64,000 nucleotides of DNA. Source: Chloroflexota bacterium (lineage in GTDB: Bacteria; Chloroflexota; Anaerolineae; Anaerolineales; Villigracilaceae). The stretch lies in the NCBI GenBank assembly GCA_016235445.1, contig JACRLB010000029.1, positions 62,001-126,000 of the forward strand, read 5' to 3'. The notes under the pieces are model-generated. The model saw nothing but the letters and a program-made list of their open reading frames with translations. It had not been told where the DNA came from and made no database searches. Both the position numbers and the translations under genes were made by a program. Numbering within the stretch: the stretch's first letter is position 1; every line of letters begins with the position of its first letter. Below, piece after piece: positions 1 to 53,492 of the stretch.

Positions 1-404
1 AGGAAATTTTGAATCGCCGCCACACGCGCCGGCAGGATGAAGTGGAGTTGAAACCTGTCACCTCTGCGGCGAAGTTGATGAAGATGCGCGCGCTGGTTGA
101 GTCTGTGCATGTGGATTCGGACCTCGAAGAATATATCGCCCGCCTCGTGCATGAAACCCGCAATGACCGCCGCGTGGCAGTGGGCGCGAGTCCGCGCGCT
201 TCGCTGGCTTTCCTGAAAATGGCGCGCGCTCACGCCGCGTTGAACGGGCGTGATTTTATTTTGCCCGACGACATCAAGCGTTTTGCGAATCCCATCCTTT
301 CGCATCGCATCATCCTTTTGCCTGAATATTGGGTGGCGCGGGATATTACGGGTGAAGTGATTGACGATGTGTTTCGGAAAGTCGCTGTGCCGGTGACTTC
401 GTAG
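1..404 (+). CDS. MoxR-type AAA+ ATPase, C-terminal fragment (5' end outside window)
   Basis: The reading frame is already open at the window edge (frame starting at base 3), so the listed TTG start at base 9 is not the real start. What remains is the C-terminal lid of a MoxR ATPase: SPRASLAFLKMARAHAALNGR followed by a PDDIKRFANPILSHRI segment is the usual end of this family. The Walker A and B motifs lie upstream of the window. MoxR ATPases act as chaperone-like remodelling factors and are typically encoded directly before a DUF58 protein, as here. The stop codon lies inside a 28-bp palindrome that is repeated downstream. The family call is secure; the substrate is unknown. Confidence 0.88.
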   Translation, partial: EILNRRHTRRQDEVELKPVTSAAKLMKMRALVESVHVDSDLEEYIARLVHETRNDRRVAVGASPRASLAFLKMARAHAALNGRDFILPDDIKRFANPILSHRIILLPEYWVARDITGEVIDDVFRKVAVPVTS

Positions 405-442
405 CGCAAGTCTATAGACTTGCGCTACACACAAGGAATTGT

Positions 443-553
443 ATGAGTCGGATTGCGCTGATCTACCTGATCGTCCTCCCTGGCGTTGGCATGTTGAACG
501 TAGTAGGACAAGTCTATAGACTTGTCCTACAGGCGTTACAAGGAATTGTATGA
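443..553 (+). CDS. Possible 36-aa leader ORF made by the duplicated DUF58 start
   Basis: The first reiterated DUF58 start reads through the palindrome and yields MSRIALIYLIVLPGVGM followed by palindrome-encoded residues. Its TGA overlaps the next ATG as ATGA, the usual arrangement for translational coupling. It keeps the same AAGGAA ribosome-binding site as the true gene. Whether the peptide is made is unknown; it may be a by-product of the duplication. It is too short for the ORF track. Confidence 0.35.
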   Translation: MSRIALIYLIVLPGVGMLNVVGQVYRLVLQALQGIV

Positions 554-672
554 GTCGGATTGCTCTTTTAGCAGCGCTGATGTACCTGATCGTCCTCCCT
601 GGCGTTGGCATGTTGAACGTAGTAGGACAAGTCTATAGACTTGTCCTACAGGCGTTACAAGGAATTGTATGA
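550..672 (+). CDS. Possible 40-aa leader ORF, second reiterated start
   Basis: The second reiterated start encodes MSRIALLAALMYLIVLPGVG and then the palindrome-derived tail. It ends in a TGA overlapping the ATG at 669, again as ATGA. The two leader ORFs therefore form a chain of overlapping stop/start codons leading into the DUF58 protein. The unit length of 119 bp (3n+2) is what places each stop on the following start. Expression is not shown. Confidence 0.35.
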   Translation: MSRIALLAALMYLIVLPGVGMLNVVGQVYRLVLQALQGIV

Positions 673-2012
673 GTCGGATTGCTCTTTTAGCAGCGCTGAT
701 GGGCGTTACAAGGAATTGTATGAGTCGGATTGCTCTTTTAGCAGCGCTGATGTACCTGATCATCCTCGCTGGCGTTGGCATGTTGAACGGGGCGATGGTG
801 GCGCTGGCCTTGCCTTTGGTTTTGTATTTGCTTGCGGGCCTGTGGCGCGGGCCAGAGGAACTGCGTCTGACTGCCGAGCGAACCGTCAGCGCGGAAAGAA
901 TCGCGCCCGGTGATTCGGTCATCGTTGAATTAAAAGTCACAAATCATGGTGAGGCGTTGGAGCAGGTTCTGCTTCACGATCCACTGCCCGCTTTTCTTAC
1001 AGTTGTTGAAGGTTCGTCGAGTCGTTTGGTCAGCATCCCTGCGAACGAAAGCATTTCATGGTCATACACTTTGCAGGGCAGGCGCGGCAGTCATTACTTT
1101 GGCGAGATCAAAGCGACTGCTGAAGACCATTGGGGATTGATCATCAAACGCGCGGTTCTTCCCACAAGCGGACAGTTGCTCATCCTACCCCCAGTTTCCC
1201 GCGTCCGACACATTGCCATCCAACCCCGCCAGACTCGTGTGTACTCCGGGGTCATCCCCGCTCACCAGGGCGGGACGGGAATCGAATTCTTCGGCTTGCG
1301 CGAATATCAAATGGGCGACTCACCGCATCACATCAACTGGCGCGTATCCGCGAGACAGGACGGCGTGATCTATTCCAACGAATATGAACAGGAGCGCGTC
1401 GCAGACGTTGGCATTGTGCTGGATGGCAGGCGGCGCGTAAATGATTTCAGCGGCGGACGTTCAATCTTTGAAGATTCTGTCCTCGCCGCGGTGGCTGTCT
1501 CTTCTTCATTGCTGTCAGAGGGCAACCGCGTTGGTTTATTCATTTACGGCAAACGCAATAAATGGACATCGCCCGGCTATGGAAAATATCAACGCGAGCG
1601 TATCATGCAAGACCTTGCCCTGGCAGAGACGGGCGAAACCCAGAATTTCAAATCGTTGATCATTCCGCGCAGGCTGTTCCCGCCCAACTCGCAGATCATC
1701 CTCATCAGCCCGCTTGGGGGAGGGGAATTAAACCTGCTTTCACAGTTGCGTACACGCGGGTTTCAACTCATGGTCATCAGCCCCGACCCTGTCTCTTTTG
1801 AAGCCCGCGTCCTTGGCGACAGTCCTTCGGTAAAACTGGCGGCCCGCATTGCCAGGCTTCAACGCGAACTATTACTGCGGGAATTGCGCCATGCAGGCGT
1901 GCAGGCGATCAATTGGGATGTGGCTCTGCCTTTCGAGCAGGCGGTGCGCGCTTCGTTGAGTCGTCCGCCTGCATTTTTGCGCGCCATCCAGCGCGGGCGC
2001 GGAGCGGGGTGA
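669..2012 (+). CDS. DUF58 domain membrane protein with partly duplicated N-terminus
   Basis: DUF58 proteins accompany MoxR ATPases and have a von Willebrand A-like fold. Two N-terminal hydrophobic segments (about residues 18-58) are followed by a beta-rich DUF11-like part (LKVTNHGEALEQVLL), then the DUF58 signature GIEFFGLREYQMGDSPHHIN near residues 203-225 and a VGIVLDG strand of the vWA-like core. Two in-frame starts exist: 669 and 720. The first 17 residues from 669 are an exact 51-bp duplication (MSRIALLAALM twice), so 720 is the ancestral start and gives about 430 aa. Both have the same AAGGAA site. The stop overlaps the start region of the next gene, indicating one operon with moxR. Cellular role unknown. 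Confidence 0.85.
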   Translation: MSRIALLAALMGVTRNCMSRIALLAALMYLIILAGVGMLNGAMVALALPLVLYLLAGLWRGPEELRLTAERTVSAERIAPGDSVIVELKVTNHGEALEQVLLHDPLPAFLTVVEGSSSRLVSIPANESISWSYTLQGRRGSHYFGEIKATAEDHWGLIIKRAVLPTSGQLLILPPVSRVRHIAIQPRQTRVYSGVIPAHQGGTGIEFFGLREYQMGDSPHHINWRVSARQDGVIYSNEYEQERVADVGIVLDGRRRVNDFSGGRSIFEDSVLAAVAVSSSLLSEGNRVGLFIYGKRNKWTSPGYGKYQRERIMQDLALAETGETQNFKSLIIPRRLFPPNSQIILISPLGGGELNLLSQLRTRGFQLMVISPDPVSFEARVLGDSPSVKLAARIARLQRELLLRELRHAGVQAINWDVALPFEQAVRASLSRPPAFLRAIQRGRGAG

Positions 2013-3127: not shown

Positions 3128-3200
3128 TCAACCTTCAACTTTCATCCTTCATCCTTCATCCTTTATCCTTCATCCTTCATCCTTCATCTTTCAACTTTTC
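3128..3200. repeat. CATCCTT heptamer tract
   Basis: Imperfect tandem (T)CATCCTT/CAACTTT heptamers upstream of the DUF309 gene. Shorter versions occur near 16.12 kb and 44.42 kb, and a reverse-complement type (GAAGGTTGAAG) near 48.71 kb. Such slippage-prone tracts carry no evident gene. Confidence 0.8.
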
Positions 3201-53447: not shown

Positions 53448-53492
53448 AAAAATTCTGGAATCCATTCGCACGCGAATGGATTCCAGAATTTT
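53448..53492. terminator. Terminator, 20-bp stem
   Basis: AAAATTCTGGAATCCATTCG and its exact inverse flank a four-base loop. A- and T-runs at the ends make it bidirectional, serving the hydrolase and possibly arsM. Confidence 0.85.

Follow-up and report, generated by a model that had tools for sequence, protein, structure and literature searches.

The window analysed here, a 64,000-nucleotide stretch of DNA from a Chloroflexota bacterium, opens within a MoxR-type AAA ATPase gene. Immediately downstream is a DUF58 gene whose beginning is present in four copies, all within positions 431-790. These start copies (ACAAGGAATTGTATGAGTCGGATTGC) have their first bases at 431, 538, 657 and 708 and their ATG codons at 443, 550, 669 and 720, so that successive starts are spaced 107, 119 and 51 bp apart. 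Three palindromes accompany them, and the region as a whole is laid out as follows, with the basis of each assignment in parentheses.

3-404, plus strand: MoxR-type AAA ATPase gene, 3′ part, open at the window edge (Pfam AAA_lid_2, E 1.3e-23; open reading frame)
402-404, plus strand: moxR stop codon TAG, inside palindrome 1 (open reading frame)
401-428, no strand: palindrome 1, arms GTAGCG/CGCTAC, providing the moxR stop codon (sequence)
431-502, plus strand: DUF58-start copy 1, with a 12-bp internal deletion in its coding part relative to the other copies (sequence)
443-553, plus strand: putative leader ORF 1, 36 aa, its stop on the next ATG as ATGA (open reading frame; without Pfam match)
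503-530, no strand: palindrome 2, arms GTAGGA/TCCTAC (sequence)
538-621, plus strand: DUF58-start copy 2, within the 119-bp tandem unit (sequence)
550-672, plus strand: putative leader ORF 2, 40 aa, its stop on the next ATG as ATGA (open reading frame)
622-649, no strand: palindrome 3, the same as palindrome 2 (sequence)
651-701, plus strand: DUF58-start copy 3, an in-frame 51-bp unit that gives DUF58 17 more residues (open reading frame; repeat comparison)
720-2012, plus strand: DUF58 gene from its ancestral start, 430 aa, or 447 aa from 669 (Pfam DUF58, E 4.5e-12; orthologues)

Two units account for the repetition. The first is a 119-bp tandem unit, in which positions 455-573 recur at 574-692 with 99% identity, and the second is the 51-bp unit at 651-701, of which there is an exact second copy at 702-752. 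An earlier, sequence-only reading of this DNA had described the array, and its coordinates, spacings and ATGA overlaps all proved correct on re-check, as did its placement of the moxR stop within the first palindrome. It had also described a single perfect 28-bp palindrome reused between the starts. All three palindromes are indeed perfect over 28 bp, and palindromes 2 and 3 (GTAGGACAAGTCTATAGACTTGTCCTAC each) are identical, but palindrome 1 (GTAGCGCAAGTCTATAGACTTGCGCTAC) differs from them in two base pairs; likewise, palindromes separate starts 1-3, but none lies between starts 3 and 4. The palindrome core occurs in three exact copies in the window, as compared with 0.13 matches expected when two mismatches are allowed. 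Elsewhere in the window there are no further direct repeats of at least 25 bp with copies up to 400 bp apart. A search of the genome with the DUF58-start sequence matched only the palindromes, and a source of the extra starts elsewhere in the genome was therefore rejected. A known structured RNA at the array was also rejected, as Rfam 15 at the gathering score returned 0 matches in positions 1-2500.

Smaller repeats of other kinds are found further along the window. Positions 3141-3188 hold a short tandem repeat with the 7-base unit ATCCTTC, with direct repeats spaced 21 and 28 apart, and positions 53449-53492 hold a 44-bp hairpin with a perfect 21-bp stem and a 2-base loop (AAAATTCTGGAATCCATTCG...), which is perhaps a terminator.

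Reading frames and starts in the array

The chain of overlapping ORFs follows from the wording of the start and the length of the units. Each start reads ATGAGT, and 107 and 119 are both 2 mod 3, so that the TGA of the next start falls in frame with the preceding ORF. On each strand of the palindrome one frame is open, and the leader ORFs continue across the palindrome. At 51 bp, the last interval is 0 mod 3, and its sole effect is to add 17 residues to the protein; the reading frame opened at 669 continues into that of DUF58, which bears out the N-terminal extension claimed by the sequence-only reading. Judged from these lengths and letters, the leader-ORF chain is a by-product of duplication.

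All four starts are preceded by an identical Shine-Dalgarno sequence, AAGGA, within a common upstream string (AAGGAATTGT-ATG). Orthologous DUF58 proteins begin at the equivalent of 720, which identifies 720 as the ancestral start and 669 as an added one. DUF58 is probably still made from 720, from 669 or from both, since the Shine-Dalgarno sequence is intact at each.

The junction in related genomes

The sequence-only reading had proposed that unit number be compared across homologous loci, and in the closest relative (G067, locus L186), whose DUF58 is 93% identical, the junction contains one palindrome and one DUF58 start, the palindrome being preceded by a 12-bp repeat of its own left edge. 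In G003 (L025) there is a decayed palindrome with one DUF58 start, in G042 a different dyad occupies the junction, and in G010 (L026) and G031 the palindrome is absent. Unit number at the junction thus differs between species, each represented by one genome, and among the relatives examined the four-start amplification is specific to this genome. Because the closest relative has a single palindrome and a single start, the amplification is recent.

The same relative offers a view of the state before duplication. Palindromes 2 and 3 share the arm variant of its palindrome, and so palindrome 1 is probably the altered one. The sequence that precedes the palindrome in this relative is GCG|TAGTAGGACAAG, whereas the unit junction in the present genome reads TTGAACG|TAGTAGGACAAG, a difference that is consistent with a join at about 2 bp of microhomology.

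These comparisons bear on the possibility that the array is a selected regulatory device, in which leader ORFs and hairpins would meter ribosomes passing from moxR to DUF58 by termination-reinitiation at ATGA, with unit number tuning the MoxR:DUF58 ratio. Translational coupling of close ORFs is established (PMC12548453), the array has both ATGA overlaps and a Shine-Dalgarno sequence ahead of each start, and RNA folding predicted for positions 395-800 is strong (z -5.7). However, such a fold score is expected from perfect palindromes alone, and the overlaps are already explained by ATGAGT together with units of 2 mod 3. Moreover, the array is absent from all relatives examined, and the 99% identity of its units indicates an event too recent to show selection. 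We therefore regard a selected device as quite improbable, and a regulatory reading is not needed to explain the array. The proposals of the sequence-only reading that the array could shift DUF58 expression against MoxR, and that copy number could vary between cells, are conjectural.

Comparable junctions elsewhere also vary between species. In the orthologues of G000 C46:68580 (L203-L210) and of C13:140444 (L212-L218), and at L187:1430-1490, the interval from a stop codon to the following Shine-Dalgarno sequence contains hairpins that are unrelated from species to species, and in other species contains none. Examples are a CGTCCCGAAGGTT dyad in G067, CAGGTCACG...CGTGACCTG in G010 and G031, and GACCTGACAGGTTT...AAACCTGTCAGGTC in G005. 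Such junctions have the look of common landing places, or of sites that favour some hairpin.

A dispersed palindrome family and its likeness to known repeats

The palindromes of the array are members of a dispersed family with the 28-bp consensus GTARnnCAAGTCTnnAGACTTGnnYTAC. With up to three mismatches, 16 copies are found at 13 sites in this genome, as compared with 0 for a reversed control pattern. Of 57 genomes sampled from the genus, 12 have the strict pattern. In the GTDB collection it is found in 84 stretches, nearly all from Anaerolineales or other Chloroflexota (taxon by record title). The family set assembled from these searches comprises 95 distinct copies, the constant core of which is partly imposed by the search pattern. 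The outer arms vary among the copies (GTAGAA, GTAGGA, GTAAAA, GTAACG, GTAGCG, GTAGAG and others), and the outer six pairs are fully paired in 86 of the 95. Consistent with this pairing, the arm covariation score on 26 distinct sequences is 0.258, whereas shuffled sets give 0.100 and in 500 shuffles the observed score is never reached. Position 4 is A or G in both arms of all 95 copies, with positions 5 and 6 varying more widely, and the result is a TAA or TAG at nearly every palindrome end. The constant purine may reflect selection for stop codons or for a recognition motif.

The placement of the family is likewise nonrandom. Gene ends within 30 bp number 80 per 95 palindrome sites, as opposed to 0.17 per control position, and 57% of palindrome sites lie inside an open frame of at least 150 aa, as opposed to 91% of controls. 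At 43 of 190 site-strands the TAA or TAG of the palindrome itself ends an open frame of at least 80 codons. When copies are grouped by their flanks, many are seen to reside at the same junction in different species, with arms that are different yet paired. At L165:5440, a CRISPR-like array whose repeats are 36 bp long ends directly at a copy. A search of one literature collection found no report of palindromic repeats in Anaerolineae, and the palindrome's own letters matched no bacterial-repeat paper among the matches listed. In cyanobacteria, very small dispersed repeats with no transposase of their own were reportedly described by Elhai et al. in 2008.

The closest parallels are found among the REP sequences. 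GTAG REPs are short palindromes located between genes, their stems carry alternative complementary residues, and their clusters are repeated in tandem along with variable lengths of flanking DNA (PMC3733652). In Stenotrophomonas maltophilia, 24-bp SMAGs are duplicated together with 26 bp of flank (region I), and sizes differ between isolates (PMC2613905). The present family resembles this superfamily, SMAGs included, in palindrome size (20-40 bp; here 28 bp), in its mostly intergenic placement beside gene ends, in having subfamilies with alternative complementary stem residues, in the substitution of one type of palindrome for another at a given position, and in tandem clusters that take in flanking DNA, here the 119-bp palindrome plus gene start and a second site on contig C3, described below. 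Unlike in GTAG REPs, however, the GTAG or GTAA of nearly all 95 copies pairs with CTAC or TTAC, leaving no unpaired tag and no polarity. GTAA is also common in the present family, the copy number is low (about 16, as opposed to tens to thousands), and there is no palindrome-flanked RAYT gene among the Y1 matches listed. Since both the unpaired GTAG tag and a neighbouring RAYT are missing, we call the family REP-like and do not file it as a REP member. The REPINs of Pseudomonas fluorescens SBW25 also occur in tandem clusters in which element and flanks are repeated together (PMC3116915), but REPINs are pairs of REPs in opposite orientation that are tied to RAYT, whereas here the palindromes are single and symmetrical and the flank is a gene start.

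This kinship raises the possibility of transposition, under which the extra palindromes would be new insertions of a mobile element, mobilised together with the gene start by a Y1 (RAYT-like) transposase. The family is dispersed, Y1 transposase genes are present in 55 of 57 genomes, and relatives have empty junctions at other sites (C46 in G016, G042 and G010, for example). Yet Y1 genes are found equally in genomes that lack the palindrome, the nearest of those listed lies 8.6 kb from a copy, in G040, and many palindrome sites are shared by descent. In addition, insertion would leave unexplained why the repeat keeps perfect tandem register with the gene start. We consider transposition in general to be quite unlikely, and a RAYT-driven form was rejected, given that Y1 genes are everywhere and none adjoins a palindrome among the matches listed.

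Local duplication and its probable course

More pertinent to the array is the recurrence of duplication beside palindromes. At C3:27126-27286 of this genome (L009:1500-1660), two palindromes flank a shortened copy of a fragment of the upstream histidine-kinase gene, standing before a uvrC-like gene. The fragment is 92% identical to the adjacent parent gene, which is its sole match in the genome, and a paralogous source was rejected on that ground; a related locus (L121) contains one palindrome. At C46, the palindrome of this genome is accompanied by a 13-bp repeat of its right half, and in G067 the palindrome stands alone. Across the family, half-copies of the palindrome occur within 45 bp at 12 of 95 sites and within 150 bp at 14 of 95, as compared with 40 of at most 3000 control draws. 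Direct repeats of at least 14 bp near palindromes show no enrichment (7 of 95 sites, as compared with 152 of 2000 control positions), and so a general excess of local duplications by palindromes was rejected for repeats of this length; half-copies alone are in excess. Local re-duplication of the palindrome itself is thus well supported, and capture of gene fragments has been found at only two sites, both in this genome. Together with the single palindrome and single start of the closest relative, the second palindrome-fragment-palindrome site and the half-copies uphold the palindrome-linked amplification that the sequence-only reading had put forward. Head-to-tail arrays of the left half are also seen beside a full palindrome at L117:3590-3680 and L132:6170-6250, in 15-bp units and in 22-bp units with some flank.

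Although the genome is a draft of 55 contigs, false expansion during metagenome or draft assembly is very unlikely, as the copies differ by the 12-bp deletion, by substitutions and in their palindrome arms, the junction is internal to a 187-kb contig, and a similar event is found at C3.

The likely explanation is that a REP-like dispersed palindrome between moxR and DUF58 was recently duplicated in tandem, locally, and took the neighbouring start of DUF58 with it. We see in the locus a further case of repeat behaviour already known from bacteria, not a new regulatory device. The palindrome would seed local tandem duplication via slippage or template switching, presumably because replication forks stall or slip at its hairpin. 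The unit of 119 bp could have arisen when the in-gene TTGAACG was joined to CG|TAGTAGGACAAG, the left edge of the palindrome, at the microhomology suggested by the relative's sequence, and this unit would then have been repeated one further time. Next, slippage by 51 bp would have doubled the last DUF58 start, and palindrome 1 would later have altered both of its arms in concert, probably through hairpin-templated correction. This order of events is uncertain, since neither palindrome 1 nor the sequence on its right matches what is found at the other two palindromes.

From reconstructed RNA-gene stems, concerted changes in the two arms have been attributed to template switching (PMC8794818). 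Maintenance of hairpins by this means would account for two-sided arm changes at one orthologous site, although that work deals with RNA-gene stems and not with dispersed palindromes. The concerted arm changes seen here fit template switching, and selection for the hairpin would look alike. A more sweeping proposal is that these polarity-free Anaerolineales palindromes, which carry TAA or TAG at either end and lack a transposase of their own, are kept at operon junctions by hairpin-templated template switching and repeatedly copy the start or end of a neighbouring gene into new short ORFs, thereby generating leader ORFs and N-terminal extensions. As a general account, this must be considered rather unlikely.

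What the locus adds to otherwise ordinary repeat biology is a case in which sister species show the states before and after a REP-like palindrome copied a gene start, with overlapping short ORFs and an N-terminal extension as the outcome. Such ORF chains may pass for regulatory leader peptides or mislead the annotation of starts. The family itself, whose ends are paired and whose arms change in concert at orthologous sites, lends itself well to testing whether hairpins are maintained by template switching.
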